Source of the DNA: Hygrocybe punicea
Lineage: Eukaryota > Basidiomycota > Agaricomycetes > Agaricales > Hygrophoraceae
Assembly: GCA_963556145.1 (NCBI GenBank)
Contig: OY744470.1
Span: 4,836,001 to 4,900,000, forward strand
Reading direction: 5' to 3'
DNA: 64,000 bases
Position numbers and translations under genes: made by a program. The notes beneath the pieces were generated by a model, which saw only the letters and a program-made list of their open reading frames with translations, did no database searches and was not told the origin of the DNA. Shown piece after piece: positions 23,000 through 47,415 of this stretch. Each line of letters begins with the position of its first letter. The stretch's first letter is position 1.

Positions 23000-23555
23000 T
23001 ACGAGTTCTTCCATTTATGGAAAACTCGTTCTTATAAACCCGGTTTTCAGCCATTGAGGTGATTCATTCATTCATCTCAGGGACTGAGGGAAAAATGTGT
23101 CCAAATATAGCAACTGAGTTCTAAATCCCTTTTGACTGGTTTCATCCGAGAATCCAGAGCCTCTATTGACTTGCACACTGCATGGATCTTCACCAAATTT
23201 GACAATGAGTATGTGATGGGGACCATCCTGCTGGAAAAAAGTTATGGAGTGCATCTGGTATAATTTGGGCTACCTGTGAGCTATTCTTTGCAAGAGATAT
23301 GAGTATAGCTACAATAACTGGTGTAATATGGCAAAGTAAAAGATGGTACTTTCTAGCTACATTCTATTGTATGTCTGGGACACTTTTGTCCACTTAAGGC
23401 AGCTGGTAAATGTGATATCTGAGTCTCTAGAATGCAAATAAGTGAGGGTGGCCCGGAGTTGTGGCTAAAATTCAAGTGGAGTTTGAAATCCATGTTGAGA
23501 GCATTCGAGCTCAGATGAATCCAAAACCTTCTCTTGGTCAACAGCCTCATCCCCC
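23000..23555 (+). other. 5' leader of the giant Y element
   Basis: Aligns along about 540 bp with the miniature leaders, with substitutions and small indels, and starts with the same terminal hairpin. No conserved ORF is seen. Similarity ends near 23550. Confidence 0.7.
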
Positions 23556-24182
23556 TCCATTTCAGACTCTACTGCCAGCCCCCTGCTACACCTACTGCCC
23601 TACAACTTTCCCATCCTCCTCTACTGTCCCCTAACTCTCTCCAGGAAACTTTTTGGCCTCCAAAAGGTCACCGATGTCTAGCAATAGTGTCACCAGCAAC
23701 CCCAGCAACAGGAGCACATTCCGGCTGCTTTGGAGCACCATGGAGGGTTTCTGAGGGCAGCAGGGGATGTGGTGCACCCACCTCCTGCTATACTAGGTGA
23801 GTTTTCTGTTTTATTAGCTGTCCTGGATCTGAATTGACCATGGGGTGCTCACCCAGGTGTCACCTGCTCCTCCCAGCCTTTCCACCCTATTCAGCACCCT
23901 CCCAGCCTTCTTTCAGTCCCACTGTAGTCCCAGCACCCATTCGTCACCATCTCCACTGCTTCCTTTACCCCTCTTAGCCTGTTCTGCCCCTTTTTCACCC
24001 TTCTGCTCATTCCCCCTCTCCAATCCTTTCTTTGACCTTTATTGACTCTCTTATCATTCACTTATCACGACTATCTCTCATTCCCATCCATTGCCTTCAT
24101 TGTAGCCATATTGTAATACTTTGTAAATAATTTGACATTTAATGAAATTAATTAAATTACAGATAAGTCCCTATTTGTAGAA
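23556..24182. other. C/T-rich non-coding stretch
   Basis: Pyrimidine-rich sequence (about 23560-24050), then AT-rich sequence leading into a hairpin. No supported gene. Confidence 0.4.
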
Positions 24183-24238
24183 GAAAGTGGCTAGCAGGAG
24201 ATCATCGCAATGCCTGAGGCAATTTTGCTAACCACTTC
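24183..24238. repeat. Conserved hairpin, copy 1
   Basis: GAAAGTGGCTAGC at the left pairs with GCTAACCACTTC at the right. It is homologous to the hairpin at 25682-25738. The GTGG/CCAC pair here corresponds to GTGA/TCAC there, a pair-preserving change. AT-rich sequence precedes both copies. Confidence 0.6.
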
Positions 24239-24363
24239 AGCGACTCTGACTTTAATCCTCATGATCATCAGGGGTGTGCACATAGGTATTATACTATTAA
24301 TCATTAATATATTTGTAACAAACTATATGTCTTATTGGATACACTATGAGTACGTGGATTGAA

Positions 24364-24432
24364 AAAGAGCTTTCCACATAGCTGTCACTCAATGTGCAAT
24401 GGGTTGTTGTCCTTGCATCATGTAACGAGTAG
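24364..24432 (+). pseudogene. 3' end fragment of the many-exon cargo gene family
   Basis: Encodes KELST*LSLNVQWVVVLASC, matching the last ~22 codons of the gene ending at 37968, with one in-frame TAG (24379). It is followed by a micro-ORF, as is the intact gene. It looks like the residue of a duplicated unit whose body was deleted. Confidence 0.7.
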
Positions 24433-25738: not shown

Positions 25739-25779
25739 GGCTTATTCAGCAGATGGCAACTTCAACAGCCCCACCATGA

Positions 25780-26830
25780 CCCGCACATGCAATCCGTGAG
25801 TTGGATATTTTTTGTTCACCTTCGCCCGGATACCACTGACTGATGTTCACACAGGCCGTGATCGATTCCGGCACCCCGTTTCCAACCGAAATGACGAGTC
25901 TGCGCGAGGGGAACGGCCGCACACACAATCCGTGAGTTGCCCCCCACTTGATTTTTTTTTGATCACCTTTGCTCGGATACCACTGACTTAAACTCACACA
26001 GGCCGTGGTCAGTTCCGGCACCGTGTTTCCACCCGAAACGATGTGTTTGCGCGAGGGGAACGGCCGCACACGCAATCCGTGAGTGGCCCCCCCCCTTGTT
26101 TTTTTTTGTGCACCGTCGTTCGGAAACCACTGACTCATGTTGTCACAGGCCGTGGTCGATTCCGGCACCCCGTTTCAGACCGAAACGACAAGTCTGGGTC
26201 AGGGAAACGGCTGCAAACGCAATCCGTGAGTTGCCCCCCCCCCTTGATTTTTTTTGTTCACCTTCGCTCGGATACCACTAACTTAAACTCACACAGGCCG
26301 TGGTCGATTCCGGCACCCTGTTTCCACCCGAAACGATGTGTTTGCGCGAGGGGAACGGCCGCACACGCAATCCGTGAGTTTCCCCCCCCCTTGTTTTTTT
26401 TTTGTTCACCATCGCTCGGATACCACTGACTTAGTTTGACACAGACCCTCATCCACTCCGGCACCCCGTTTCCGACCGAAACGACAAGTCTGGGTCAGGG
26501 GAACGGCTGCACACGCAATCCGTGAGTTTCCCCCCCCCCTTGTTTTCTTTTGTGCACCGTCGCTCGGAAACCATTGACTTAAGTTCACACAGGCCGTGGT
26601 CGATTCCGGCACCCTGTTTCCCCCCGAAGCGATGTGTTTGCGCGAGGGGAACGGCCGCACACGCAATCCGTGAGTGGCCCCCCCCCCTTGATTTTTCTTG
26701 TGCACCGTCGCTTGGATACCACTGAGTTAAGTTCACACAGACCCTCATCAATTCTGGTATCCTGTTTCCAACTGAAAGGATGAGTTTGGGCGAGGGGAAC
26801 AGCTGCGTACAGAATCATTCTGTCTCCACC
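25780..26830 (+). repeat. GC-rich hairpin minisatellite of the giant Y element (unit about 147 bp)
   Basis: About seven units, each containing CGCAATCCGTGAG, a C-run/T-run tract, GGATACCACTGACTTA and a CCCGTTTC/GAAACG stem. ORFs across it are repeat by-products. One to two inverted units of the same family occur at 57700-57895 in the X3 leader. Confidence 0.8.
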
Positions 26831-28057
26831 CACTTTTTTGTTTCTGTTTTTTTTTGTTGCTCCAGCATTGTTGGGAGACCCTTACCTTATGCCTACACTT
26901 AATCAATGCTCTACCTTTGTTTGCACTTGAATGAGCTCTCTCAGCCTTGTTGTATTACTTTAATAGTTGAAATGTTATATTTTTTGCGCAAACAATGTTG
27001 TTTGGTCACGGTGGTGCATTGCTTTTTGCTTTCTGCTATACCTACTAGCCCAACAATTGTTTTGGGAGTCCCAGACAATTTAAACTGCCTCTGTGCTTGT
27101 CCTAGCCTGATTCTTGGTGTTGTACACCAACAATCTTTGCTGTCAAAGCTCTCATAAACGACAAAGTACGTTGCTTTTTTGAAAGCTGGATTTCACTCAT
27201 CTTGTGTCTTCATCCTACACATCTAGAGCCATCTTGGAGATCTTTGCAAGGGTTTCCTTTCCGTAGCTCCAAATCTCCATTTGGTTCAGTGGTTGTGGAG
27301 CTATAACTGTTTTACTATTCAGGTACATTTGGTTGATATTACAGCAACCCCTAATCATAATTTTATTATCCTAGCAATTATTTTGAAGCCCTTGCTTCCC
27401 TCTATCCAACTACCACTAAATCAGCAGAATCCAACCGCTGGTTCACAAGGTATTTGACTTTTTCTATCCTCACACTCCTATCTCTTTGTCTCAGAGTATA
27501 CTCATCCAAATCTCTTGATTTTGTAGCCAATTTGGGACCTCTTGGCAACTTCTTTCTGCTGGTATCTTGGCCTTTCCAAGAGACCACCCTGGTCCCGTGA
27601 CAAGTCAATTTTTCATTGGCTTTTTCACTTGCGCTTGGCTTTTCGTCTCCGATTGATCTGGTACTTCTGGGACTAGTTCTGGACTCGCGTATTATCACTC
27701 TCATCAGTTCTTGCTGTGGCTGTAGTGCTGCACATTGGTTTATTAAAAGGAGACTAGAGCAAGGTGAATTACAGAGAAGTGCTACCTCCCTGGGCTCTCT
27801 CTACGAGTGTTACCCCAGTTGCTTGTGATCTAACCAATCACTGCACCGCTCTCTGTAATACAGTGTGTAGGGAGATTGGGCTGGCGGGTTTACAGTTGCC
27901 TCCCCTTCCAATTTGGAAGATTCTCTATTATCAACTACCACTGTTGACACCGATTTCGTCTCTTTGAGAATATACTGGTAGTGTGTACTAGATCCACAGA
28001 GAACTGATTTTCAACCTCGCATCTATCCCAAACTCCCCACTGTCCTTTGACGTACTC
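26831..28057. other. Upstream region of the dioxygenase-like gene
   Basis: No supported gene. Pyrimidine-rich segments near 27400-28000 precede the start codon at 28058 and may hold its promoter, but I cannot define elements. Confidence 0.3.
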
Positions 28058-29947
28058 ATGGATCTCTCTGACTTGATTAATGTGGAAATGTGTGAACAAA
28101 ATGCTCCGGTGAGTTCTGAGTACTCATTTTAATTTGAGTTGCTTGCTCAAGGTTCTCATAGGATGATGGCAACCAGTTTGATGCTCCTATGGGGTCAAAT
28201 ACTGATCAGATGGACTTGGATGTCGCAGTTGTCAACAGAAATCAGGACAATCTATCATGTTCGTTTCTATAACATTATATTTTCTTGCTTTTGTTTAATT
28301 CTCCTTCAATAGGCCACAATAATCCTGAATCAGACAATCCAGTTCTCTTTGGTATCAGGGATGTATACAGCATATCTCCTCTGGATCCCTATACAACAGA
28401 ACCGCCCTACGACTCATTTTGGTGTGAAGATCAGATATCCAGGACACCTGTATCGTCACCAGCTGTATTGGTTCCACCTCCCCCCACAAATCCTCCTGAG
28501 GGATCTGGATTCGTCTATCCTAATGCGCCATCTTATACGTTGGTTCAAGATAACCGTTATCAAAGGGGATACACATATGTAGCCAATTTCGACACGGCTA
28601 AGAAAAGCATGGTTCTGGAAACACTGCTCCATACCATTACCCCTCCAAACATAGGTCCTAGTTTGGTTGATGGGAAACTTGTACACGTTCCAGTTCCTGG
28701 CATGATCCTGATGCCTGTTGGCATACCATTCGTTAATCGTATAAATGGCTCCGATAAACATATCATCACCGTCGCCTGCATTCAAACCGTTTCCTCCATG
28801 CAACAGTATGCGTGCGGCCCAGAAGTCAGCAGACTCGCTGATGAAGTACTGGAAATAGCCTTTGGAAAACCACCTGTTATTGGCCAGCCTGCTGTTCCTG
28901 CCATATACGACCTTGGACTTAAGCACAATGACAGGTCCACAACAGACATTGGTGATCCTCGTAATGGTTCCTCCAGTTTGGCCACAACCAAGATTGAGGG
29001 TGATGGACGTGGCGTAATTGCACCTGCTGTTCAAGTTCAACATCCACAGATATCCCGCCTTCTTCGCATCTGTTACCAGCTGTTCCGACACATCATGCCA
29101 GCTTGCATCTCCAAGCTGGAGTGGGATATGTTTGAGTGGATCTTTTGGGATAACAATGTGCCTGGATTTGGTGGTCCTTTACCGAACAACACTGGTCTGC
29201 AAGTCAATGTATCATCTGATATCGGTGATCTGGCTTCCATGATTGGTCAGTTCCAGGGGAGATTGCACACCGATCGCAATGATTTTCATCCGGCATTTAC
29301 TCTTTTTATTCTGGCTATACGCTTACCTCCAGGTACATGTTCTTGTCATATTTCTTTTCTAAATGCATTTATTAACAATCACAATAGGCAGTGATTCTGG
29401 TCCCTTCTTCTTCCTGAGGCCTGCTTTATACTTCAGGGCAATAAATGTTGCCGTGTTTTTTTCAGTGTTCAAGGGACAGGATCTTCATGGTGGTGAGAAG
29501 CCAACTGTAAATCCAGATCCAGTTGTGGCAAAGGAGTGGCTGGCGCAGACTGGTCTTGGTCAGCTTGCGGATTTGGTCGGCATGCAAAATCGGGTCGGCA
29601 TGGTTGTATATCCTAATCATGCTGCATTTACACGGATTACCCCATTTCTCGTTACCCCAGTCACAGGCTTCGGAAACATGGGATCTCAGTCACATTTCAG
29701 CCGTGGATACCCTACCTTTGCTAGTGATGGCCTACAAATCTTTGGAGATATCGCAACACACAAGAATTTCCTTGCACGTGACCTTGTGTGTAACTCCTGG
29801 AATAGCGCCATTCTTGCTGGCATAGATTCCCCTGTGCATCCTTCTGTTATGCTGTCCAGCATGACTTATACCGATGAGAATGGGGAGATTTGTAGGATGG
29901 CACCTCTTCCATACGATCCAGTCAAAGACAGGTCTTTTGTGCGATGA
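28058..29947 (+). CDS. Fe(II)/2-oxoglutarate dioxygenase-like protein (TET/JBP-like), cargo gene 1, N-terminal part
   Basis: Exons 28058-28108, 28162-28258, 28313-29332 and from 29388 have GT-AG introns of 53-55 nt and consistent phases. The likely double-stranded beta-helix core has HTD at residues 368-370, the PPG-SDSGPFFFLRPALYFR strand region, and DLHGGEKP with a second histidine at 423: an HxD...H iron site. No clear 2OG-binding arginine is visible. In Agaricomycetes, TET/JBP-type dioxygenases are known to expand with transposons; membership here is inference from motifs. An in-frame TGA at 29945-29947 is followed directly by ATG in the same frame. A 39-nt intron (29939-29977) would remove it and fuse this part to the chromodomain part. 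Otherwise it ends here. Confidence 0.6.
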
Positions 29948-32900
29948 ATGAGAGGATACTACTCATGGTATGTGCAGAAGATATGTGATCCACATCATAT
30001 TCCTATTACGAAGACGGCATATGAAAATACCCAGCAGCATTTGCGAGAATCATACAAGAATTCATTGGAATCCTCTCGCCCACGACTTGCACCTCTCAAT
30101 GTCCGACTCCCCATCAAGCCACGACTTGCAGTTACTCCAGATCAGGATTCAGACGCTGCTCATTCTACTCTCTCAACACCTTTGTCATCCCCCCCAGCAT
30201 CGGTGATAGATATCAATTCTGAAGAGCCTATTGCAGCTGTTGCTGCTAATGTCCGACAGTCAGGATCAAAGCGAAAGGCTCTTTCTCCTGTGACCGAACA
30301 GTTGGATGACTCCCATCTTCCTAAAGCAGATGACACTGTAGAGATTGGGAATGATGATGGCTCAGAGTATGAGATTGAATCTATCCAGGAGGTTGCAATA
30401 ATTGATGTAAGTATCGTCTGGATTCTTTCACTTACTCATTACTATTTCCTTTTGTAACTGAAACTCTTTGTTTAGGGGATTCCCCAATGGCGTCTAAGAT
30501 TCAAGGGATACGGACCATCTGAGGACTTGTGGTATGAGCATAAGGGAATTGCGTATGTGTTTCTTTTATTCCATACCAATATCTTTGTAATCTTTTGGAT
30601 TTAGAAAATCTGCTCCCTGCCTTCTCAAGGAGTTTCATAGGAATCCCCAGAACAATGTTCGTCCCTTACATGAACTGGTGTCATCAGCTGGGTCCGATGA
30701 TGATAGCGACACTTCGGATGAGGATTGGGTTGACGACCAAGACCCAAAGCCAAAGAATACATCTTCTGCACGCCCTCAACCCGACATCATAACTGACCCA
30801 CCCACAAAGCAACCAAGTTCCTCTGTAACTACAGGCATGCTTGTTATGCCTGTGGTTTCACAGTTTCTCGGTCCTGTGCCTGATACGTCCTTCAAGATGC
30901 TCGATATACTTCTTGATGTGACCAGACTCCAAGAGGAAGCTATTGCGCTGGATGCTGGTCAGAACCTTGTTGGCAAGCCTATGGATTCCAATACCATTGT
31001 CAAGCTTCTTCGTGATCGTCTTGACCTTGACAATCAGGTCACAGCATTTATGGAACTTGCACCAGAATCAAAGTACACCAACGTATCACCAAATGATGAA
31101 GCCACCCTAATTTTGGAACAGATCGTTGGCTCAGTCGATATTCTCCCTGCCCTGATGGTGGAATCTGAAAAACTGCATTTTCTCCAAAGAGCTATCCAGT
31201 GGCAGATGTGTCATTCCTACTTGGTGTTCTTTCAGTGGTATGAAGAAAGTGGCCCACATCTGGCGCGACAGGTGGCTAACAGTCATCGAGAACACACAAT
31301 TAACGCTACTTTCCCGTCATGCAAACTGCCTCAACCATGTCGTACAATATGTCACATGTGTTCGTACTCAACAACAAAGTATTGTTAGTCATGGAACCAA
31401 ACGACGCAAGACCTCAGCAAAGACAACCAATTTACCGACTCCTCATCTCGAGTTCAATGACGATTTCACAAGACTTTCACTCATACCCTCCCATTTTGTT
31501 GACAATCGCATCAAGTCCAGTTCTTCTGCCATCACACCTCTGCCAATTGTGAATCGGACCATCAACAATGGTGATGCAGCACTTTATGCCATTGTTTCAG
31601 AAGTCCTCTTTGCGCTGTGGTGTGATGCACTTATCATCCCCTCACTTGATACAGCGGATAACCTGTTCAACACCTCTCGACGTCGTAAAATTCCTAACGA
31701 CTCAAAGACAACTCGGAACAAGAATGTAGTTGACCGCTCAATTGTTCGAGGTGGGATTGTTATGGCATTAGTTGATATTGTTGGAGAGGGCATACTGGCA
31801 TCCGATGGCATCCGCAATTTCCTATCCAGTCCAGCCAGGATGTTTACCAAAAACCTGCAGAAGGATGACGCATTCGCCAGTAAACTCATTCGGGATTACG
31901 CAAGTACTATGGAACCTCTCATTACTCATGTTGAGGATTTGCTGGCCGCTAAACCAAAGATAGCAGATTGGTGTGATTACATTGGAAAGTTGGTTAGTGG
32001 TGCTCTGGTGGATCTCGGTGATAGGAGTCTTTCTGCTCTGCCAGGTGGGGCGTCCAAGGGATCGAGATCCAAGAAGAAATGCGTTCCACGGTCCCCACTC
32101 AAGCCTGCTCTTCCCATCAAGAAATTGGAGGACATATTGACAGATTCCAAGGCGCCACATTTTGGTGCTCTTGCTTTAATCTGCCGTGAAGCTTTATCTG
32201 TGGATCATGGAAAGGGCATTCAAGACCTCCATCTCAATCGCGTTCTCTTAGGCCAAACGAAGCCGAAGTACCAACGGACACATACACTTAGTCAGACTTA
32301 CCCATTCCGTCATGCCAGCCCATATGCGATTCTGTTTGCAAAACACTTGCCAGCCAGGCAACTCACCGGACGACTAGGTTTGGCCAATGCATTGGTGTTT
32401 ATGGTTAGTTCTCAATGTGAGGACACCGTCAAGTTTTTGAACAGCGTCACATTCTGGTCCGATTCACTGGAGGAATGTATCTCTACTTTTGATCAAATTG
32501 TCAGGAAAAACTCGCATTTCTACACCGATCTACGCTATAATCCCATATCACCATCTTCATCCAAGACCAAGACGAGTAAAGCAGGCGATACAAAGAAGAA
32601 AACTGGCTTTTTTGCCCTGAACAGACGCGAGCAGGCAGCCTTAGGGTATATTCATTTTGACTCACCAACCATATGGGGTCAGCCTTCCAGTCAGCTCAGT
32701 CTATTCTCAAAAATCCCCCATCGAGATCCTCTGGTGAATCGTTTTACTGAACTCTTCAGTGATGATTTTCAGACCAGGTGGACGAACTTTCTTGGACCGC
32801 TTTTCAACCAAGACCCTGCTTCCTTCACAGGAAATAAACCGACATGGAACGATATGCATCAGTTTATTTGCAAGCTCAGTGTAGCTGGCTTAGGATCAAC

Positions 32901-33431
32901 AACACAATCCTCCCTTACTGCGTTTCAACTCACAAATAATCTCACACTTGCACGCCTCTGCACGCCTCCTCTTGTAGAAGACGTAACAGCCTGGATATGG
33001 AAGATGAAGAAGGCTGGTGCTTATCGCGGTCTACAGGAACTAGGATTCGATGTCACATCTCTCCACAGGACCCACACATCATTCAAATGTGTGTTCAAAC
33101 ACTTTGATGATAATCTGTCGCAGCGTGATCGGTCTTCAATGGGATTTGACATCGGTTGTGGTGTCATTTTTGTGGAGCATATACTGTGCAAAGTTGTTCG
33201 CTGGGATAAGCGCTTGGTGTACAATTGTGGTCAGGGTGCCAGTCTGGTTGGGCTTGGAGATGTAGCGGCTGGTAAGGTAACATGGGCAAAGGGTGCTAAT
33301 CATGACGATGCATCCCTTTTTCCAATTCCTCTTAAAATGAGTCAGGATCGTCTGACAGAGCTTTTGGTTGACGGTAAGATATCTCTTATATATTTGTTAT
33401 TGGTTCTCATATCACCTCTTCAGCTTCTTAG
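29948..33431 (+). CDS. Chromodomain plus large unknown C-terminal region, cargo gene 1 continued
   Basis: Introns at 30407-30475, 30553-30604 and 33374-33423. After splicing, YEIESIQEVAIID + GIPQWRLRFKGYGPSEDLWY + KSAPCLLKEFHRN match a chromodomain (histone-tail reader), at about residues 703-757 if fused to the upstream part. An acidic linker follows, then a large region (FTELFSDDFQTRWTNFLGPL, HTSFKCVFKHFDD, GCGVIFVEHILCKVVRWDKR) that I recall from multi-copy mushroom proteins without known function. A frame change near 31240 is resolved by a candidate 37-nt intron (31199-31235). With both mini-introns the gene would encode about 1,654 residues. Without them it is a pseudogene or two genes. 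Confidence 0.55.
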
Positions 33432-33667
33432 TTCCATTGCCCTAAATTCTGAATACGTCACTTGAACTTTTGACTTGGTTGTAACATTAATGTATCTTAC
33501 TGTACTTGTATGTGATGCGGTCCCATGATTTATATCGAGTTTCACATGTTTTGTTATGCATGTATTTTGTGCTACTAGTACTCAATTTGTCTGTTGGTGA
33601 TTAAACCGAAGATTTTATATGATTGAGTCTTTGATTAAACAGTGTTAAATATCTGAAATGTCTCATA

Positions 33668-34810
33668 CTACGTCTCTTGTTCATCCTCAGAAAAGTCCGC
33701 ATTCCTCTTTAATGTCTTTAAAACTTTGGGCTTCTGAAACAATGCTTGTGCTTGTGCAAGCGCAGCTTTCTGATAAGACATTAACAATTGGGATAACAAC
33801 GGACAATGAAATTTGATTTCCAACCTTTGTGAATGTATTGTCAATCAAGGCAAGCGATCGAAGCACAATCACAAGTCTAAAATCTTTGCTGACATTGTTT
33901 TTATCACCACTGGCAAGAGGGACTACCAAGAATGAAAGTCGTGCTTCCACAATATCTCCGACAGAAATATTGGTTGGATTCATGCAGGTATATCTAAGGT
34001 AGAGTATTTGACATGGGAAATTTCATATAACTGTAAACCTTACCGGAAGCTACCATCATCCTTTGTCGCCCTTTGAAAATAGCCAACTTCATTATCCACA
34101 GTATGGCGATACTTGGAATCTACAGATGCCAGAATTCCATCAGGATCAACAAGGTTGTTGAAAGGTACAACTTCAGCAGATGCCGCAATTGCACCAGTGC
34201 TGAAATATCGGTTGCCAGCTCCTACAACAATCCATTCCTCGAACATATCAGGCATCCAGTCTTTTAACGTGTCCGAACGCATATGCTTGGCAAAGGTCGA
34301 ACAAATTGCTGATATACCCTCCAAAGCCGCCTTGTACTTGTGGGTATCCAAACCAGTCAATTGTATTGCCTGCCTAATACGCATTGGATTCCTGAAATTT
34401 GAGTAAGTTCTTCATTCACGTCATTGTGCTGGAAATACCTGGGTAGCTTGAGAACTGGTGGTAGTTCATAGTGAGTGAGAATGCCTGTCAGACGTAATAC
34501 TACTTCTTCAGGTCCTTCTCCCAGTCCCCCCTTTACAAGTTGGTACTGATGATGGTCTTTCTTATAGCGGACTTGCAGTGAATCAAGAAGGCCATCAGCC
34601 TGTATGCAGCTAAGTTTTTGCTGTGTCGCAAAGATATTCAGGCTCTTACTTTAGTCAACGTGCAGAGATAGCTAGCTTGCTTGGAACTGTTATACTGTAT
34701 GGAGGCTTCAAGTTCCAGTTTTTCACCTGTAATTATATGATTGAATCAAGCTATGGCAGTATAAAATTCTTCTACTCACCAGCAGCTACCAGCTCATAAA
34801 ACTTATTCAT
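33668..34810 (-). CDS. Unknown 295-aa nuclear-type protein, cargo gene 2
   Basis: Six exons on the minus strand: 34810-34780, 34726-34650, 34599-34439, 34391-34044, 33993-33825 and 33769-33668. All have GT-AG introns and the phases sum to 296 codons including the stop. The protein has MNKFYELVAA at the start, RIRQAIQLTGLDTHKYKAAL in the middle, MNPTNISVGDIVEARLSFLV near residue 210, and a basic then acidic tail (KVLKTLKRNADFSEDEQET). That tail is familiar to me from multi-copy Agaricomycete proteins of unknown role. It is convergent with gene 1 (237 bp apart) and divergent from gene 3 (402 bp). Confidence 0.65.
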
Positions 34811-35212: not shown

Positions 35213-37968
35213 ATGTCATCCATGTCCCGTCGTGCTGCAACAAAGCAAAGCTCCAAGTATGTTTTCATTTCTGATTTAGCATAACTATTCCACCTGGGAC
35301 TGATTGCTTTGAATTAGATCTATTTCTCGTAAAAAAGCAACCAAGCAAGTCAACGAGCGTGAATATGGTTCCAGGTATTCATTAAACTTCTACACGTCAC
35401 TACTTACTAAGATGTTTCTACAGTGACATGGATGTACTGTATGTTGTTCAGGACTTTACACATCAACTCACAACTTACATTAAATAGAGGGGAATCGGAC
35501 GGTGACAATGTCATCAAGTATCTACTTGTTCTTGCCTTAGTGACCGACCACTCATCCACTCATTTCTAAACAGAGATGTGTCATCAAAGATTAATCCGTC
35601 CACTCCTACAAGGGCTTCCCGATCCATCCAGCGTTCCAAGAAACGCGCTGTATCTGAGTCTGACTCTGAAGGTCAGCCTATTGCAAAGCTACCGTAAGTG
35701 CCACCTTTGTGTATTCTAGGTCATTGGTTTAGCACACAATAGGGTTAACAAACGCCAAAAGTCTTTGTATGCATGCGTAAATGACTTAGCCATTTTTATC
35801 ATGTGCTGACTTTGCAAATCTAGAAATAACAAGAAGTCCAAGTCCAAAGATGTTCCATTGGTTTATGAGGATGAGGATGAGGATGATGTATTTTTGTAAG
35901 CACCAACCGCTTTTGCATTATCTGTTAACATGAACATGCTGATGGGACATTTACTAGCGTTAAATCTAACACAAAGAAAGCAAAAGGGTATGTATCATAT
36001 GATTGCAAATACACTATATTAACCGTATATCTGTTACCATCTATCAGCCATCAGTCTGACTCTGCATTAATTGATGTTGACGCTGAAGAATCTGAAGGGT
36101 ATGCCACTTTACATTTGTGGATATGTGCTGAGGAGATCTTATCAATAGTCTTCCTGTACCGGATGATACGGCTACTGACAATATTTCTGAGGATAATCAG
36201 TCAGTGGCACGTACTAATCGTGCAAAGTAAGTTTGTGTTGATTCTGTGTGGTACTTCCCTTATAATCCTTCACAGGGTTGTGGACAGTGATAGCGATATT
36301 GAGTTGGTCAAGTTTGTCGCTCATATGTTACTGTATCCATGCATCAATACTAATATTCTGTAGTCCTCATGTCAAAGGAAGAAAGGAGCGGTGAGTTATT
36401 CAAACTGATGCTTCATAGGTATACTTGATTCACACCATACCAGAGTACGTGTACAAGAAACGTCAAACATCACCAATGAATCAAAGGGCTCAAACGATGA
36501 AGCTATGATACGTTCTTCAGGCAAGAATACCAAGTAGGAGCTGTCTTCATCTCTGGAGTTACGCTTATATTTCTGTAGGACTGTGGTCAAGAAGAGCAAA
36601 TTCAAACCAGCGACACCCAGTGAGAATATGGTTCCAGTATATCAGAGGACAACTGAGAACAAGTTTAGTTTTTCATCGTTGATCATGTTCACCATTTGAT
36701 TAGTTTCCAGGCCAGTATCCAAGGGCAAGAAGAAAGTCACTGACCAGGAGGAGAAACTTGTGTATATGGAGGATTTGCCTGAAGCGTACGTATTGCGTAT
36801 CTAATTCTATATGGCAGCTGATTAGGTAATAGTGATTCGTTTGTTAATCCTACTACTGAGAAGGCACCATTGGACTGTGAAGTCACTGACCCGGGTCTGT
36901 TTGATCCTTTCATTGCTGACACATATGGAAATCTTCCTCACCTCCGGTGTGTATGTTGTTTCTCAAGTCTTATTCTAACTCACATGTTCGATCAAGTGCT
37001 GGTACACTTGTCACATCAAACAATGGACCGAATCCCATGGGTCCCTTTTATTTGAGCTTAATTCCTGATGTTTGTCCAGGTGTCAATATCGAGTGAGATT
37101 TATTTTATTACATTGAAAAATATACTGATGTAGTTACTCACCAATATAATTAATAGTGTTATCATCAAGGCCATTACGTTCACGAGAGCTGGGATCTTTG
37201 TTAATCCTTCACGTGCATCACCCTCTATTGTCAAGTCCGCTGCATCTTCTGATTCTGTTCGGAGCACAAGATATGCCATTCAAGCGAACGCTCCCCACAA
37301 TTTTCTCTACACCGTTTTCACTTCCGTTCTTGCTGTCAACTCCTCCAATTTGCATGAGCGTGATCCTCAAGGGATGTTCCGCCAGATAACCGGCACTTTG
37401 TGCACCCAGGAGTGGGAACGCTTCTGTGCCTTCTTTTGTATGGTTTTTAAGGCCAAAGAACTTCATGCCCAGATCTATGAAGATGCGATATCCATCAGCA
37501 CCAGAGCCAAGCCTAAGGACGGTGGAGGTAAACCATGATTAACTTTGTTAATATGATTGCTGAGTTGTGTATAGACCGTTCTCAGCAAGGATTCAGCCGT
37601 TTGTTGGCTAAAGGCTCACCTGCCAAATCACCTGTTAAAGTAGCCGGATCATCGAGGACTGGAGCAGTGAAGGGTGCTCTCAATTTTGATGACCATGGTG
37701 AGTTGTCGTATTTCGTTAAATTGTGTTACCAATCATTAATATGTGCTATGTATGTAACTCAGTTCCAATTTACGATGGGAGAAAGGGCAACTTCAACACG
37801 AATCAACTGCAACTTCTAGATACAACGTTGAATCCTTGGACTGACGATTTATCTTGCAGCGTCTGTCTTGTTGGATACACCGCGAATACTTGGGTTGGCA
37901 AAGAGCTTTCCACGCAGTTGTCACTCAACGTGCAATGGGTTGTCGTCCTGGCATCATGCAATGAGTAG
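35213..37968 (+). CDS. Many-exon unknown protein with charged N-terminus, cargo gene 3
   Basis: Starts MSSMSRRAATKQSSK and is assembled from roughly 18 short exons with introns near 45-60 nt; traced joins include 35257/35320 and 35698/35824. The N-terminal half is Ser/Lys/Asp-rich with several basic clusters (possible nuclear localisation) and acidic runs (YEDEDEDDVF). The C-terminal half contains CEVTDPGLFDPFIADTY, GTLVTSNNGPNPMGPFYLSL, IIKAITFTRAGIFVNPSRAS, QIYEDAISISTRAK, VPIYDGRKGNFNTNQLQLLD and ends VQWVVVLASCNE. I recall this C-terminal architecture from multi-copy mushroom proteins of unknown function. A 3' fragment recurs at 24364. Exact exon borders in the first half are approximate. 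Confidence 0.6.
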
Positions 37969-38219
37969 TATTTGATTATCTCCAATATCTGTCGCTGAAT
38001 ACCTTGTATATACCTGTACCACCTCCACCCCCCTTTGGATTCGTCTTTGTCTGGAATTGTCTGTTGATACCCTAGCCTGTACATTTTTGTATTCATGTTT
38101 TAAATTATTGCCAGCCGGTCTGCATATTGTTCTTGTCTGATTACTAAGAGTTTTTCTTACTCTGAAAGCTAAACTCCGAAAATTAAACTCAACAGTTTCA
38201 ATACTCTTGCCTGCATACC
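37969..38219. other. 3' region of cargo gene 3
   Basis: Non-coding. No terminator-like signal is recognised beyond AT-rich stretches. Confidence 0.3.
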
Positions 38220-38333
38220 ATGTTGTTCCACTGTGTTGTGTTTCTATTATTGTTGCTTTTTCCTGCTCCATCTTGTCATTTGAACAGTGCTAAGGTGGGT
38301 GTCATAACTAGATTGCTGTCTTGCCGCAACTAA
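38220..38333 (+). CDS. Hydrophobic micro-ORF in the giant Y element
   Basis: 37 codons: MLFHCVVFLLLLLFPAPSC then HLNSAKVGVITRLLSCRN. Against the miniature copies (MLFYCVVFLLLLLFPIPSG...LNSSHV), about eight of the first 18 codons differ synonymously and only two to three change the residue, a pattern expected under protein-level constraint. It looks like a signal peptide or single membrane span. It may be a stand-alone peptide or a first exon. Confidence 0.45.
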   Translation: MLFHCVVFLLLLLFPAPSCHLNSAKVGVITRLLSCRN

Positions 38334-38503
38334 TATCTATCGAGAGTATAGGCTAGTTCAATTGACCCGTATCATATGGCATATACAGATGATGCGGACA
38401 TGTTTGCTGGTATATATTTCAAAATCCCATAGTCATTTGAAGCTGATAAGAATCATAGACACAAATGCATCATCGAGTATATAACTTCTGACCAATCGCA
38501 TTT

Positions 38504-40315
38504 GTGTTAGCTGACCTATTCATAACAACAGAAACATCTCATGGCCTTGTCCATAAGGTACAAGGCTGGGTGTTATACTATCGTCCTGATACACCCCAGG
38601 ATAGGGTGTTATACTATCGTCCTGACACACCCCAGGATAGGACACAAATATCTATTTATCGTCTTGCTGTGTCCCAAGACAGGGTGTTATACTATCGTCC
38701 TGAAACACCCCAGGATAGGACACAAATATTTTCTTATCATCTTGTTCATCTGTCCCAAGACTGGGTGTTATATCATTGTCCTGATACACCCCAGGATATG
38801 GTGCTTTTTTATCATCCTGTTTATGCACCGCAGAACTGGAGTGTAAAAACACAATCATCTTATCATCTTGCTCATGTGTCCCATAACATGCTCTTGAATT
38901 ATCAACCCGATGCACTCCAGGATATGGTGCTTTTTTATCATTCTGTTCATGCACTGCAGAACCTGAGTTTAACGACACAAATATCTCCTTATCATTTTGC
39001 TCATGTGTCCCAAGACAGGCTATTCAATTATCAAGCTAATGCATGCCAGGATATAGTGTTTTTCTATCATTCTATATATAGGTCTGCACCACAGAAATTA
39101 ATTTCAAGGACACAGACAATGTGTGATTATCTTGCTCATCATGTGCCCCACAGGAGAATATTAAACAATAGTGGAGATTATCATTTTTCTCATGATATCT
39201 CTCATATAACAGAAGAAACAGTACAATGTCTTCCTGACCTAGATCACCTTTGTTCAAACCATTGGATTTTAAAGCCCAACAAAGAACTACCATTTATTAT
39301 TGAATTCTATGTACGACTTCTTCTATATGTCAATGCATCCATGCATGACTCATTATTTGTGCATGAAATACTTCCCCAGAAGTGTCAAAGAATACATCTA
39401 AAGCTGCTACAAAACATGTATGTAGCACATGACTTTGCAGTATATATGCAAAAATATCAAACATTAATGATATATAGTTTATTGTTTATCTTTCAAGTAT
39501 TTCTGGTATATTATTCACAATATTTTATAGGTCTTAATGTCATATGTACCACTGCTTTGAAACATGAATCTGCATCAGATAATAAATATTGCTCTAATGA
39601 TAATACCAAGGAGAACGATACAAATATGCATAATATTGTTGGTGGTGGATCAAAGTTGTTCATATTTAATGAGCTGTCTCCTTATTTATCAAATTCCATA
39701 AGATATCCTACTCATGTGAAATTCAAATTCAGAGAATATATAAAACAATCAGATACAAGAACTGATACATTAAATACATTAACATGTTTTGTGCCATGGG
39801 ATGTGTTATTACCACAATTAACAACAGATCAACTAAAGTCCATTGCAGCAGCTCATAATATTGTCACATATGCTAGATCTCATAAGGCAGATATTCAAAC
39901 TTCAATCAAGAGCCATATATGTGCAAGTTGTGCTCAATATCTACCTGTATTTGATGTCATAGATATTGAAGTTTTAAATAAGGAATCAAAGGCATCTAAT
40001 GCAAGAGCAGTGAAACGATATCAAAGCCAAAATATAGAATACAAAGTAAAAAATATGCAATCAGTAACAAGATATCAACAAACAAAAGGTGTAGAATACA
40101 AAGTAAACAACTCACATTCTGTGACAAAATACCAACAAAAAAAAGGTGTAGAATATAAATTAAATCATGCAAAGTCAGAACAGAAATACAAAAATACATA
40201 TTTCCACCTCCACCTCTCACAGCTGCTCTACAACATACAATTATGGCTAACGCATGTCAAGATATGTCACCTGATCAGATATCAGAATCAGGATGTGCGA
40301 TATGTGGTCAATTGA
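38504..40315 (+). pseudogene. Rep N-terminal region of the giant Y Helitron
   Basis: Contains a tandem-repeat-encoded segment (YYRPDTPQDR repeats, 38556-38965, possibly upstream of the true start), then the GGGSKLFIFNEL segment homologous to the X-family N-terminus, and periodic lysine-rich repeats (VTKYQQKKGVEYKL). The homologous sequence changes frame at about 40190-40215 (FPPPPLTAALQHTI lies in the next frame), so a single-base frameshift separates it from the main Rep/helicase ORF. Probably one protein in an intact relative. Confidence 0.6.
38556..38965 (+). repeat. Tandem repeats upstream of Rep in the giant Y element
   Basis: Repeats of 45-95 bp built on ACACCCCAGGATA and GTGTTATACTATCGTCCTG. 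TATC-TCCTG and CAGGATA can pair as a hairpin. The position matches the unrelated 30-bp arrays in X1 and X3. Confidence 0.7.
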
Positions 40316-43300
40316 CTTCAATTAAAGATTTATTAAAGCTCTCTAATGTCAACGCAGACTTGAAGATATTAAGAAACCCAGATGTGACACAAGCAGAGCG
40401 GTTGACTGCTGAAGATCCCATCAAAGGCTTGGATGGCCCTGTCTTAATTAAACAGCTGCACAATATATGCATAAGTTGCCATAAATCTTTGACAAAAAAC
40501 AAAGTCCCATTGTTGTCATTAGCAAATGGAAAATGGTTAGGAGATGTTCCAGTACAGTTGATGGATTTATCATTTGCAGAACAGTTGCTGGTTGCAAGAG
40601 TACGACACAATCGTTGCATTGTAAGAGTGTCTTCAGGGATGCATAAAATGAGAGCAAATGCAATCACTTTTGCTAATCCTATTCCTAAAGTGTATGATAT
40701 TCTACCTCCACCCATTGAAGACTTGGATGAAGTTCTGGCATTTATTTATACAGGGCCATGTAAGCCCACTAAATCAGACTTTGAGAGAACACCTCTTCTT
40801 GTAAGAAGAAACAAGGTTAAAGCGGCATTGGAATGGTTGAAGTTGAATCATTGTAATTATTACGATCTGGAGATATCACAAAGAAATCTTGATCAGTATC
40901 CAGAAAATGGTCCTCCAGTTGTTGTAGATTATCATCAATCTTTTACAAATAAAAATCCAGAGTCAACAGCTGTTAATGACATTGAAGAGGAAGATGGTGT
41001 TGAATCAGGAAAATGTCCATTTGTTGTTCATGGTTTGACAGGTGAAGAATATTCCAACAAAAGTGCCAAAGCTCTCAAGGCCATTGCATTAAAGCATTTG
41101 ACTTTAAATGAAAAAGTTCTAGCCATAGGTCATGCAGCTCATCCTGAATCTATTTATGGCAATCCACAGTTATTTCCTCAAATGATGCCCTGGTTGTTTC
41201 CATATGGACTTGGTGGAAGTGGCAATGCCTATCAGCAGGGAGAATTATCAGATATTAGACACAAAAGACATTTGCTTATGTATCATGACAAAAGATTTCA
41301 AAAAGATCCATATTTTCCATTGATTGCATTCAATCACGAACAGATAAAACAATGCACTACAGCAGGATATTTATTAGCGGAAAAGTCAAAATTCCAGGAG
41401 ATTTCAAACAGATTGTTGGATGTCAACATTCATACACTAGCAGACATTTCTAAAAGAATGGAAAATGGTGATAAAGTAATACCAGAAACAGATGAGGAAA
41501 AATTGTGTTTTAAACTCATTAATGATATTGATCATGTTGGAGGTGGTGTAAAAGGATCTGTCACCAGCAAAAAATATATGCGCAATGAAATTTGGTCTTT
41601 AATTTCATTTGTTGGTGCACCCTCTTGGTTTATTACATTTGCTCCTGCCGACAACAAACATCCACTCTCATTATATTTTGCAGACACCAAAGAAACATTC
41701 AATCCTGTTCTAAGGGATTATAATGAAAGATATCGATTAATTGCCCACAATCCAGTAGCTGGTGCAATATTTTTTCATTTTATGACACAGTTATTCATTA
41801 AGCATGTACTTGGTGTTGGAGAAAATCATCCAGGAATATATGGCAATACAGAAGCATATTATGGAACAGTTGAACAACAAGGATGGTTGACATTGCATAT
41901 GCATATGCTCTTGTGGCTTAAAGGAGTATTATCACCGCAACAAATCAGAGACAGAATTATGGATCCAAATTCTGATTTTCAACAAAGATTGGTGGAGTAT
42001 CTTGAGAGTGTGCATATTGGAGAGTTTCTTACTGGATCCATGGCTGATGTAAAAGCCAACATTGAAGAAAACAGTCAATCTAAGGATTATCAGGATCCTA
42101 CTCAGACATTACCGGACACACCTCCACCAATGTGCAATAAGTCAAATCATGTTTGTAATGATCATTGTTCTAACAAGTCACAACTTAATTTGTGGTGGGA
42201 TAAATTTTCAAGTATAGTTGATGACTTGATTATGCGTTCTAATATACATAATTGTGGTAGAAATCAGTCAAGTAGCGAGAAGACCAACAAAAAAGATAGA
42301 CCGACGTGTATGAACAAGCATGGCAAATGCAAAGCCAGATTTCCAAGACAAACCTTTGAACAGACTCAAATTGATCCTAAATCAGGAGCTTTGAACATGA
42401 AAAAAGGTGAAGCTTGGATCAACACATTGACACCATGCATAACATATCTTCTTCGGTGCAACTCAGATGTGACAAGCCTCCTCTCAGGTACTGCTATCAA
42501 GGCTATAGTGGCATATGTCACTGATTATGTTACAAAACCTGGTCTGAAAACATACACTATCTTTGACTCTATTCGGAGTGTTTTTACTAAAAATTCTGAA
42601 ATGCTGGGAGGATCCATGAAACAAAAAGACAAAGCTAGACGTTTGATAACACAGATAATCAATTCATTGACATCAAAGATGGAAATAGGTGGTCCAATGG
42701 CATCTTTGTATCTGCTAGGTAATCCAGATCACTATACAAGCCACAAGTTTGTAACAGTGTATTGGAAAAGTTATGTGAGAGAAACAATGAAGGTGTTCAA
42801 ATCTGACCAGGATACTGTTGAAAACAGTGAGACAGACAAGGTTCTCTTGCAAAAAAACCAAAATCAATATGTTGGCTTTACAGCAGTCCATGATTACATG
42901 TATAGACCAAATACCTATAATGTTACATGCCTATATGAATGGATACAAATGGCAAGACGAGTAAAAATACCTACTCCAAAACAGAAAAATCATAATTCTC
43001 CAAACAGTGATGATGAACTGGACTTGATTGATTCAAATGCAAAAAATCAACAATATGAAGCAACAGCTGGATGTAATCTCAGGTCACTAGGTGATATTGA
43101 TGATGATGAGCTCAATTTGGGAAATAATGAGAATAGAGTTGACAGTTGCAATGAAAATAGTGATTACAGTGGTAGTTATGATAGCAACACTGATTCAAGT
43201 GGGTCTATTACTGCTGATGAAGATGGAAATGACATTTCTAAAGAGGACAGTGATAATGCCTGCAATATTAATGCAAATTCAGATTCAATTGGTTCTGATG

Positions 43301-45615
43301 GCACAGACAATAAACAGGCTCATAAATATTTTTTGTCAGCTCATCCATTACATGAAACACACTGGATAGAATATCATTCATCATATAAAAAAGTTGTGCC
43401 TAACTTTGTAGGTGGTTCACTTCCAAGAAGAGATCGAGGAGATAGAGAATATTACTGTGCCACCATGCTTACTTTATTCAAGCCCTGGAGAACAGGCCAA
43501 GATCTTAAGAATAACAATGAGTCGTGGGATGAGGCATTCACAGACTATAAATTTACATCACGACAAAGCCAAATAATGGATCATTTTAATATTAGATATG
43601 AATGCAATGATGCTCGAGATGATTATTCAGCTCAGCTCAAAAAGGGTGATGCTACAGCTGGTATATTTCATTCTTGGATGACATCAGAAGAAATGGATAA
43701 CATGGATGATATCAATGAGAATGGTCATGGTGATGATTTTGGTGATAATGAAGGAATTGATAATGAGGATTATGGATTAAATAAATACTCGACCCTTGGA
43801 TCAAAAGGAAGACTAATCAATGCACAAATGAATGCCACTGAAGATAGTGTCAGAAATGCTGGTTGGCTGGATTTCAGTCCTGATGGCATCAATACAATTG
43901 ATACTTCTCCACTTAAGCCTGAAATCATACAGCCTGGTGGTAAATGGAAAACAGCTGTTCAAGATAAAAGACAAGAAATCATTGCTGATAGAAATGCACG
44001 TGTCGCTAATGCTGAACACACCAGAAAAACTCATGCATCTGAAAATGACGTTAAAGTTGTTGACCAATCATATTTAAAACATGATTTCCAAGCAAAGATG
44101 CAAGTTGTTCAGGAATTGATAGATGGCACAGTTACTTTTTTCAAATTAAATACTGAACAACAAAGAGCATTTAGAATTGTTGCTAATCACACTGCGACTT
44201 TAAATTCAGATCAGCTAAAAATGTATCTAGGTGGCATGGGTGGAACTGGCAAAAGTCAAGTAATCAAAGCACTCAAGCATTTGTTTGAACATAGACATGA
44301 ATTACATCGTCTTGTTATACTGGGTCCAACTGGAACATCTGCAGCATTACTGGGTGGCTCAACTTACCACTCATTCCTAGGCATTCGCATGAATAATGAT
44401 ACCAGTAATCAAAGTGTAGCAATTGCTCAAGTGAGAGCAAGGCTAGAGGGAATTGATTATATTTTCATAGATGAAGTATCTATGTTGGCATGCCATGAAT
44501 TATACAAAATCAGCTCACAACTTGCCAAAGCTCTGAATGTATTTGATGTGCCATTTGGAGGCATTAATATTATTTTTGCGGGAGATTTTGCACAACTGCC
44601 ACCTGTTGGAGGTGCATCTTTGTATAGTGGTTCAGTAGGAACACAAATAGATTCTGGCCTGAAGCCACATTATCAAGAAGCAGCTATTGGCAAAGCACTC
44701 TGGCATCAGATCACAACAGTTGTCATTTTGAGAGAAAATATGCGTCAAAAGACACAAACACCTGATGATGCATCATTGCGATCAGCTTTAGTAAACATGC
44801 GATATGGTGCATGCACTCCTGAAGACATCAGATTTCTAAGAAAGAGAATTGCTGGCAAACGCTCAGATCAGCCAAATGTTGCTGCAAAAAATTTCAGAAA
44901 TGTTGCTATCATCTGTGGGGTGCACTCTCAAAAAGACAGAATCAATCAGCTTGGATGTGAGCGTTTTGCAGAGGATACAAATCAAAAGTTGACCCACTTC
45001 TACTCTATGGACAAATGGGGCAAAGAAAGTGATCCAGCTAATAAATCCAAATGGGGAAAATCGAAAGCAGCATCAAAGACAATTCACAAATCAAATCAGA
45101 TTGATTTTGATGAACAACTTGAGATTTGGAAACTCAACCATGGAGCAACTGAACACTTTCCTGGAAAGCTCCCATTGTGTCTTGGCATGCCTGTGATGAT
45201 CCGAAACAATGATGCAACTGAATTATGCATCACCAAAGGCCAGGAAGGCATTGTTGTTGGCTGGCAATCAATCAAAGGCCCTCATGATAAACGTGTTCTT
45301 GACACACTCTTTGTGAAATTGGATAATCCACCTCAATTGGTTCAAATACTTGGTCTACCAGATAATGTTGTTCCTATTGTGAAGAGCACAAAAACAATTC
45401 ACTGTCTATTTCCAAGTGACCTAAAAGAATCTGTTGAAAGACAACAAGTATGGGTGCTGCCCAACTTTGCTATGACAGCTCATGCATCTCAGGGAAAAAC
45501 CCGCCCTTACAATGTTGTACATTTAAACAGCTGTTTTTCACACATGTCATATTACACAGCTCTGTCTAGAAGTGCAAGTGCAGCAGGCACCATCATTATC
45601 CAAGGTTTTGACTAA
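40216..45615 (+). pseudogene. Helitron RepHel: HUH-Y2 nuclease and Pif1-like helicase (giant Y)
   Basis: Longest Helitron frame in the window (1,790 codons from ATG 40243). A C2C2 finger (CAICG...CISCHKSL) comes first. Then HUH LTLHMHMLLWLKG (H552, H554) and a Cys/His cluster (CNKSNHVCNDHC) missing from family X. The Y2 motif is AYVTDYVTKPG (Y758, Y762). An acidic linker and Walker A GGMGGTGKSQVIK (1330-1342) follow, then FIDEVSMLACHELYK, FAGDFAQLPPVGG, ILRENMRQK and TAHASQGKT. It ends at TAA 45613, where a 2-nt loss relative to family X (GFD-NRMITRG) shifts frame into the protease ORF. All catalytic motifs are intact. It is the best local candidate source of transposition proteins, subject to the upstream frameshift. 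Confidence 0.9.
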
Positions 45616-45617
45616 TG

Positions 45618-46867
45618 TTATTACAAGAGGTTGCAGTGGCTATCTCAGACAAGAATTCAGAGAACAAGAAATATTAGATGATATCACAAGGCTTAGATAT
45701 GAAGGACAACTACCTGATCACTTAACTGGGCAACTCCGCAATACATTGATTCGTCAATATCAATTATGGAAAGGCACTGATTATGTTCCTGCCAAAGTAG
45801 ATGCAGCATTAAGATGGTCTGCCAGAGATCCACTACCTATGCTTCCTGTGGTTGTTGACAGTTCATGGCAACTCATTGGAAAATCTACTGATGGAAAAGG
45901 TAAGAAAAATTTACTTCAACAGGCCAGTCTTGGTTTTGTGGCTGCAAAAGGAAGCTCACCAGTAAAGCAAAATTTGAAACGTACTTATGATGAACATGAT
46001 GAGACACCACTTTTGAGTAGGAAAAAGAGAATAATAACTCATGAAGGCAGTTGCACTATTCTTACTCCTCGTGGCATACATTGGGATGAAAACAACTGGA
46101 GTTGTGCATATGATTCACTCTTTGTTATTTTGTACAATATATGGGCAGAACATCCTGCAAGTTGGACAACAAGATTTCAGTCAATTGGAAACATTTATCT
46201 GTCAACACTTGTACATGGGTTTAACATGATGGCATCACAATTAAGCTTTGAAAATGTAAGAAATGCAGTGAGAATGAAACTCCATGCCAAGAATCCAGAA
46301 CAATTTCCCATGGGTGCTACTGGCATCAGTGTTGCTACACTATGTATGGAAATGCTGAAACCACGAGATTGTATTGCATCTTCACAGCTTATTTGTTCTC
46401 ACTGTGATTATGAAGGTCCAGAAAAAGATGACAATCTTACCTATGTATTGCATGCTGATTCATCTGTTTCTGGCTCAACATCTGATTGGGTGCAAACCAT
46501 TGCATATCATGTTAGAAATAAATGTCCACAATGTAATGTTTCAATGATGCGTACCATATACTATACAAAAACACCTGATTTGCTAGTATTAGAATATCCC
46601 AACATAAACATGATTACCAGCCATCAAATAACTGTAAATGTAAATGAAAAGTCCATAAATTTGCATCTAAGAGGTATTGTATATGCTGGAGGATATCACT
46701 TTACATCTCGATTCATATCAGAAGATGGAAAAATTTGGTATCATGATGGAATGACAATGGGAGCAACATGTAAGCGAGATGGCCACATTGGTATGATGTT
46801 GGATGATGATTTTAAAAGATATGAAAATAAAATTCTTGTGCTAGCAGTTTATGCACGAAACCAGTAA
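45618..46867 (+). CDS. RepHel C-terminus and USP-like cysteine-protease domain (giant Y)
   Basis: The frame opens at 45572; homology begins with VITRGCSGYLRQEFREQE, the end of the helicase. Then a linker (KKRIITHEG), Cys box GIHWDENNWSCAYDSLFVIL (Cys near codon 178), CxxC pairs (CSHC, CPQC), His box GGYHFTSRFI (His near 376) and WYHDGMTMG. The layout resembles peptidase C19 (ubiquitin-specific protease). A role in deubiquitylating host factors is speculation. In an intact relative it would be fused to RepHel. The stop is followed by the family 3' UTR. Confidence 0.65.
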
Positions 46868-47415
46868 TTTAATATCATTGAGGACTATTGGGTGGGAAAG
46901 TGGGACATTCAAAATTTTCACCAGCTGAAATTCATATTGGACATCAAAATTGGAGGAAATCTTCTGGGTGGGAAAGTGGGCCATTAAATATAGGAATGTT
47001 ATAAATCGATTACATGATGTCAAACACTTAAGTTCTTATTGTTACTTATTGCCCGAGCACTGATAAGTAAGGGTAACAGTGGTAGTAGTAAATGCCAGGA
47101 TAAACTGTTGTATAACTAGTAATATACAAGTATGGCAGGAACAAGTGTAAATAATATTGTCCAAGAGATTGGTAGTCTCTTGATCAAAGGCCCCAACTGC
47201 AGATAAATAGTACATTGTCACTAACAGAACAGGATAACATAGAATGTATGATTCCAAATTCCAACAATGTTCATATATACTACGATTATTCTTGTTATAC
47301 ATTACACAAACAAATTAGTGCAGCTTATGTAGAATAAATAATGTACATTAAATGATTGAATAGAACCCAGAAGAACTCGTTCATGCCACGCTTGGGATGG
47401 CCCACTTCCCCAAGT
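46868..47415 (+). other. 3' UTR and terminus of the giant Y element
   Basis: Contains two GGGTGGGAAAGTGGG repeats and ends AAGAACTCGTTCATGCC, hairpin GCCACGCTTGGGATGGC, CCCACTTCCCCAAGT. Miniatures share this region with the MITE added. Confidence 0.75.

Follow-up and report, generated by a model that had tools for sequence, protein, structure and literature searches.

A 24.4-kb Helitron2-like element of Hygrocybe punicea that carries a three-gene segment at 15 genomic sites

Starships are large cargo-bearing elements of fungi and are moved by a tyrosine recombinase. Carriage of several genes by fungal elements is usually ascribed to them. Gene-carrying Helitrons of fungi are also published. 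In the available text of one report, HELPO1 Helitrons of Pleurotus ostreatus reach 13.7 kb and have captured genes downstream of RepHel (Castanera 2014, PMC4289320). In that of another, a Helitron2 of Agaricus bisporus carries a TET/JBP-like dioxygenase gene, with a proposed role against DNA methylation (Kojima 2025, PMC12730594). Here, we describe element Y, found in 64,000 nucleotides of DNA from the agaric Hygrocybe punicea (assembly GCA_963556145.1, contig OY744470.1, positions 4,836,001 to 4,900,000, forward strand). This whole stretch is called the window. Y is much like the A. bisporus element in being an agaric Helitron2-like transposon with a TET/JBP-like dioxygenase candidate. Compared with HELPO1, it is larger (24.4 kb) and its cargo is upstream of RepHel. 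We think it very probable that Y is a rolling-circle transposon and that a fixed segment of three genes travels with it as a unit. Coordinates are listed in Table 1.

The tips of Y had been placed at 23000 and 47415 in a preliminary description of the window, and inspection of the letters at both tips and flanks confirms these positions. At the left junction, flank GTTACAAGT is followed by element sequence TACGAGTTC from 23000. At the right junction, the element ends as CCCCAAGT at 47415 and flank GGGGTTAATG follows. The host sequence interrupted by Y is the RepHel gene of another Helitron. At site X3 this host sequence is uninterrupted and reads GTTACAAGTGGGGTTAATG; site X1 is the reverse complement. 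The joined flanks of Y (150 + 150 bp) match window positions 4748-4449 and 52289-52588 with 99.7% identity over 300 bp. The claim of two empty sites therefore stands in so far as the flanks are joined in X1 and X3. However, a single host segment has been duplicated to give X1, X2 and X3. Hence, the two sites are paralogous and amount to one line of evidence, not two independent ones.

Further copies were sought in the assembly to which the window belongs (92.2 Mb, 42 contigs; contigs and their copies are denoted C1, C35a and so on). The left 301 bp and the right 311 bp of Y each have at least 41 matches, with the best 40 candidates scored for each. End matches were paired by contig and strand. 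Among the matches listed, this identified 15 elements with both ends, ranging from 24.2 to 35 kb (the C39 copy is 35 kb). All 15 contain the gene A 5' exons, the large gene A exon and the gene B/C region, in identical order and orientation. The gene B/C region has a short gap in the C41 copy and lies in two pieces in the C39 copy; in one C33 copy, gene A contains an additional 4 kb or so. The RepHel stretch is at least partly present in every case; it is incomplete in the C1 and C3 copies and in one from C33. All 15 left flanks differ, the C41 and C33a sites being 8 bp apart in one host repeat. Seven copies, namely that of the window and six of the other 14, were compared whole. These are 24.2-25.6 kb long and 99.1-99.8% identical in aligned positions, and most of the variation is in the array of 148-bp repeats. 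Within the Y family, the cargo is a fixed trait. The earlier proposal of a giant Helitron moving a multi-gene segment, with other copies sharing its tips and gene order, is thus borne out by exact common ends at 15 different sites, with cargo inside each.

For three of the 15 joined flanks (C36, C34 and C35a) a convincing spanning empty site is present in the available sequence. That of C34 matches window positions 47580-47421 (98% over 160 bp). That of C35a lies within the left flank of C40a and is gapless (94% over 226 bp). Eleven of the 15 gave no spanning empty site in the same sequence. The C33a join was not counted, because its match spans Helitron tips only. Empty and filled sites of the three copies have only a T in common, with no target-site duplication beyond one base, and the boundary of Y is ambiguous by one T. 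This T is immediately to the left in all 39 distinct flanks of Y and related tips (24 GT, 11 AT and 4 TT). A longer T run is not required, and the base to the right of the 3' end is unconstrained (29 distinct flanks). For comparison, the published Helitron2 target, as given in the source text available, is TTTT/T or C (slash, junction). The ends of Y are TACGAG ... CCCAAGT, inserted after T; canonical Helitron1 ends (5'-TC ... CTRR-3' between A and T) were not seen at its termini. In C33, the junction of a giant copy coincides with the 5' tip of a sibling Helitron (AAGT/TACGAG; C33:3597010-3597011). This had the look of a head-to-tail tandem, but that reading was dropped: the sequence beyond the 3' end belongs to a sibling Helitron (83.7% identical to window 23000-24155), and the giant copy is inserted at the end of this other element.

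Y encodes a RepHel protein with Pfam matches to Helitron_like_N (2.9e-33) and PIF1 (2.9e-24), and with HMHMLLW, Y2 and Walker motifs. Next to it is a USP-fold domain with Cys, His and Asp. In copies C40a, C40b and C35b, RepHel and the USP domain form one open reading frame (ORF) of 2,208 amino acids. A RepHel and a USP-like protease had both been claimed earlier, and the domains, motifs and fold show that both are real. In a PDB sequence search, the protease ORF gave a single chance match (E 1.9). As in Helitrons, an HUH Rep and a PIF1-type helicase are joined in one protein and there is no duplication beyond one base. Asymmetric terminal inverted repeats are a mark of Helitron2, in the available text of two reports (PMC5148889; PMC4067079 for Helentrons). 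Y has such a repeat, of 11 nt (23001-23011 with 47370-47380), and this length was reached by only 6 of 5000 random stretch pairs. The 5' hairpin was not equalled by any of 200 shuffles. Judged by sequence, Y is Helitron2-like. No apurinic/apyrimidinic (AP) endonuclease family was found by Pfam in the 1818-aa RepHel ORF or the 446-aa C-terminal ORF. Hence, Y does not qualify as a Helentron sensu stricto, and of the original Helitron2/helentron label only the Helitron2-like part holds. Y shares with Starships the role of large fungal cargo carrier. However, its ends are Helitron2-like and Pfam found no tyrosine-recombinase captain among ten ORFs, gene B and part of gene C.

Several other rolling-circle elements resemble Y in part; here too, the comparisons are with the text available of each report. 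FoHeli Helitron2 elements of Fusarium oxysporum have asymmetric terminal inverted repeats, a 5' hairpin and Helitron-in-Helitron insertions, and one FoHeli group is also without a 3' hairpin (PMC5148889). Unlike Y, they are not described there with comparable cargo or chromosomal confinement (PMC5148889). Helentrons and HINEs have subterminal inverted repeats placed like those of Y, with one arm close to the 5' terminus and the other some tens of bases inside the 3' terminus, and also short partners bearing tandem repeats (PMC4067079). Helentrons carry a C-terminal AP endonuclease, whereas Y has the USP domain in that place, with no endonuclease found (PMC4067079). A deubiquitinase-type domain on a rolling-circle transposon is known from Helitron-encoded VTD/OTU proteins; that of Y differs in its USP-like fold and in following RepHel within one ORF (PMC9741609). 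A search of one literature library found no description of a 24-kb Helitron2 with the gene A fusion described below, or of Helitrons confined to one zone per chromosome in an agaric.

Gene A is the largest cargo gene. In copy C35a it has five GT-AG introns of 52-69 nt and is spliced to 1,708 amino acids. The three large exons are all open in two of the seven whole copies (C35a and C40a). Only two full-length homologues were found (P0001 and P0002 below), one in Marasmius tenuissimus, with 28% identity across 42% of the query, and one in M. crinis-equi, with 23% across 85%. With a profile, 11 further proteins were recovered at exon level; they share 64-100% identity with 40-57% of the query and are open exon by exon. 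Gene A reads HTD...H, as in Fe(II)/2-oxoglutarate oxygenases. The HxD is kept in the seven exon-level relatives that cover the site (P0003-P0007, P0009 and P0010), and P0001 has HVD. From this pattern, we infer that the product is a dioxygenase. The same protein probably contains a chromodomain. Pfam Chromo matches occur in P0001 (E 3.1e-4) and P0002 (E 1.5e-4), both under the curated cut-off, and align with YEIESIQEVAIID...WRLRFKGYGPSEDLWYEH of gene A. The exon ORFs of the window copy, scanned with Pfam, gave no Chromo match.

PE-type TET proteins are defined by HxE in place of HxD (PMC12730594, section 3.4 in the text available). Since gene A has HTD, it is not a PE-type TET. By the lists in the abstract of the same paper, the A. 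bisporus Helitron2 TET must be of PE type (PMC12730594). Gene A further differs from it, as far as it is described there, in the probable chromodomain, the length of 1,708 amino acids and the presence of two further genes. The main text of that paper does not contain the word chromodomain (0 hits; PMC12730594).

The two further genes are B and C. Gene B is spliced cleanly in the window copy. Neither gene B nor the part of gene C that was scanned has a Pfam match. To delimit the cargo we used a sibling Helitron without it (C1:4927782-4940813). This sibling is 13.0 kb long, has the same kinds of ends, and has a RepHel 96% identical to that of Y over the stretch compared. In the part compared, it aligns with window 22998-24155 (85%), continues as 151-bp repeats resembling those of short elements in the window, and resumes at 38579-40758 (85%). 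Hence, the cargo extends from about 26.9 to 38.5 kb, with the tandem repeats on one side and the sequence that precedes RepHel on the other.

The seven whole copies also record sequence decay. With the consensus taken from five or more of the seven copies and repeat regions excluded, we counted 92 transitions among 804 CpG positions and 84 among 8,166 other C/G positions. Per position, the rates are 0.114 and 0.0103, respectively, an 11-fold difference, and 0.0054 for A/T. We read this excess as ongoing decay of methylated CpG. CpG observed/expected ratios are 0.23 for the RepHel of Y and 0.13-0.17 for the window's other RepHel stretches; the cargo has 0.57 and a long terminal repeat (LTR) element 1.3. 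This would fit arrival of the cargo, at a later time, in a Helitron lineage that had long been methylated. It also suggests that the cargo does not fully protect copies.

Y and its relatives are not spread evenly. Allowing up to three mismatches, the 3'-end pattern has 116 genomic matches and a reversed-pattern control none; the 5'-tip pattern has 278 and its control none. For each pattern 100 matches were listed, those of the 5' tip reaching as far as contig C33. For each of 13 contigs we took a single 1-Mb interval with the median gene A hit at its centre (together 14.1% of the genome). These intervals hold 98 of the 100 listed 3' ends and 96 of the 100 listed 5' tips. They also hold 38 of 41 gene A matches and all 15 both-ended copies, counts that are partly circular for gene A because the intervals are centred on it. 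As a dispersed control in the same genome, eight of 96 Pfam Tet_JBP matches over the cut-off lie inside. These 96 exon matches are scattered across the chromosomes. The clusters are interior, with one per contig holding listed copies. The other three gene A matches fall elsewhere and are diverged or incomplete, with 83-89% identity (C1:7387483-7389660, C8:2070156 and C40:4384251); the first matches the window only as far as 31359. Inside the clusters, C41 2.344-2.391 Mb and C39 2.50-2.58 Mb contain mirrored cargo copies with the same breaks, which suggests large inverted duplications (palindromes).

By analogy with known Helitrons, RepHel would nick at the T/TACGAG 5' tip, unwind one strand through the cargo and stop at the conserved 3' end. 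The displaced single strand would then insert beside a T, often within other Helitrons. Less surely, the cargo, and mainly the gene A protein, may help the element to operate where chromatin is CpG-methylated, through recognition of histone marks and oxidation of methylated bases. With similar reserve, the USP domain might protect RepHel from degradation and so stabilise the machinery.

A number of observations count against this account. The RepHel-USP frame is open in only three of the seven whole copies, and at least one of the three large gene A exons is broken in five of them, including that of the window. Hence, many copies would be unable to supply their own proteins. Homologue P0002 has HVN at the HxD site. 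Pfam Tet_JBP matches none of three members of gene A group A2, and of the 142 genomic Tet_JBP matches not one is in gene A. Since gene A also lacks the PE hallmark, the name dioxygenase stays provisional. An AlphaFold model of the P0001 region homologous to gene A (15-row alignment) was unusable (mean predicted local distance difference test score 40.6), and a PDB sequence search with the A2 profile gave no match up to E 10. For the dioxygenase-chromodomain cluster of the preliminary description, the evidence is therefore HxD...H and weak Chromo matches in two homologues, with no match to Tet_JBP and no Chromo match over the cut-off. Of the three intron-containing genes described there, A splices in a sister copy and B in the window. 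Gene C yielded no splice model under strict settings and three under looser ones, with an unconvincing 5' half. The letters of the claimed 3' hairpin are present, but in the window copy it folds no better than shuffles (z -0.9; 37 of 200 fold at least as well). With the C carried by most listed copies, the pairing is broken (z +0.4). Finally, relatives that are short or without cargo are confined to the same zones. Hence, the cargo alone does not explain targeting, and gene A is not shown to be causal.

Other explanations must be weighed against transposition of Y as one unit. The copies could stem mainly from segmental duplication of centromere-like regions. The window does contain large inverted duplications, and the mirrored cargo copies of C41 and C39 would be expected from such events. 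However, 15 different left flanks with exact ends already contradict this origin for these 15 copies, and three copies have spanning empty sites. We regard it as very improbable. Greater weight, though still the lesser share, goes to the idea that the cargo, as a separate transposon or a cluster of host genes, got into a Helitron a single time and is carried without use. Siblings with RepHel but without cargo exist, gene A is damaged in most copies compared, and the CpG ratio of the cargo exceeds that of RepHel, as expected of a later arrival. Such siblings also answer to one of the objections foreseen in the preliminary description, that the backbone may lack the cargo and the cargo be bounded by another transposon; the second half of it found no support. 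The best inverted repeat bounding the cargo, among the 25 of 27 pairs shown, is a 13-nt match of 92%. Furthermore, Pfam found no transposase among seven cargo ORFs, gene B and part of gene C. The presence of cargo in every both-ended copy, the open gene A of C35a and the 11 relatives open exon by exon also speak against an idle passenger.

The nature of the zones is a separate question. In A. bisporus, each chromosome has a single cluster of methylated repeats that is proposed to be its centromere (PMC7473861, available text); these putative centromeres are described there as mainly retrotransposons. By position and by this likeness, the Helitron clusters are most likely centromeres. They may instead be repeat-rich zones of another kind, with Helitrons purged elsewhere. 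Housekeeping RRM exons are not clearly depleted inside the intervals (4 of 44, against about 6 expected), although these are too few to judge gene depletion. We consider such zones unlikely, given a single interior zone on each of 13 large contigs, the A. bisporus precedent, the dispersal of another transposon-linked gene family and the finding of all recent both-ended copies inside intervals that are, however, centred on gene A. The broadest reading of Y is itself tentative and, taken as a whole, unlikely to be right in all its parts. It holds that a transposon-built chromatin kit, shared in trans with shorter relatives, lets this Helitron group live in and build methylated centromeres on all 13 chromosomes. 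The kit would comprise a chromodomain-fused base dioxygenase, the USP protease and two further proteins, the dioxygenase falling outside the PE class and maybe outside the PU and AG classes as well.

The copies of Y show that a Helitron2-like element can carry a stable, intron-containing segment of several genes, 11 to 12 kb long, through repeated transposition. Should the gene A protein act on methylated DNA, Y would offer a natural test of whether transposons bring their own anti-silencing enzymes. Confinement to one zone per chromosome provides a concrete candidate for the make-up of agaric centromeres.

Table 1. Positions of element Y, its parts and its empty sites in the window
Feature	Position	Strand	Remarks
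Complete giant Helitron2-like element Y	23000..47415	+	24,416 bp; ends common to 15 both-ended copies; empty sites
5' terminal hairpin (ACGAGTT...AACTCGT)	23001..23030	+	DNA fold -9.2 kcal/mol, z -5.9
5' arm of asymmetric (sub)terminal inverted repeat, ACGAGTTCTTC	23001..23011	+	11-nt inverted match to 47370-47380
Tandem array, ~148-bp units	25781..26806	+	Length differs among copies
Cargo segment, approximate limits	26900..38500	+	Absent from 13-kb sibling Helitron
Gene A: dioxygenase-like (HxD...H), probable chromodomain, large C-terminal region	28058..33465	+	Interrupted in window copy
Gene B: 307 aa	33687..34810	-	Five exons, 4 introns of 47-53 nt
Gene C	35200..37968	+	Many short exons; C-terminal part ~37.0-37.97 kb plausible
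RepHel	40243..45615	+	DUF6570, Helitron_like_N (HUH), Y2 motif, PIF1 helicase; 1790 aa
USP-fold cysteine protease domain	45572..46867	+	Split from RepHel in window copy
3' arm of subterminal inverted repeat	47370..47380	+	35 nt from 3' end
Conserved 3' end GCTTGGGATGGCCCACTTCCCCAAGT, possible hairpin	47390..47415	+	116 genomic pattern matches
Interrupted host Helitron, continuation on 3' side of Y	47416..47776	-	
Empty site X3	52438..52439		In RepHel gene of another Helitron
Empty site X1	4598..4599		Inverted copy

The window also contains three copies of a short non-autonomous Helitron of 3.5-3.65 kb, at 18485-21986 (+), 47779-51425 (+) and 9265-5612 (-). It has Y-like kinds of ends and a GC-rich tandem array of 151-bp units, and it resembles animal HINE/DINE elements. 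Together with about 1.4 kb of the host RepHel gene, the short element is repeated directly in units of about 4.9 kb (18485-47778 without Y, then from 47779). This unit is also present, inverted, at 2896-9267, and Y is inserted in one copy only. A further Helitron2-like 5' tip is at 58192 (-), by a diverged 151-bp repeat array (56760-57696); no 3' end belonging to it was found within the window. At 59399-63803 is a Ty3-like gag-pol with a CpG observed/expected ratio of 1.3, compared with 0.13-0.23 in the RepHel genes. Hence, neighbours within the zone differ strongly in CpG decay.

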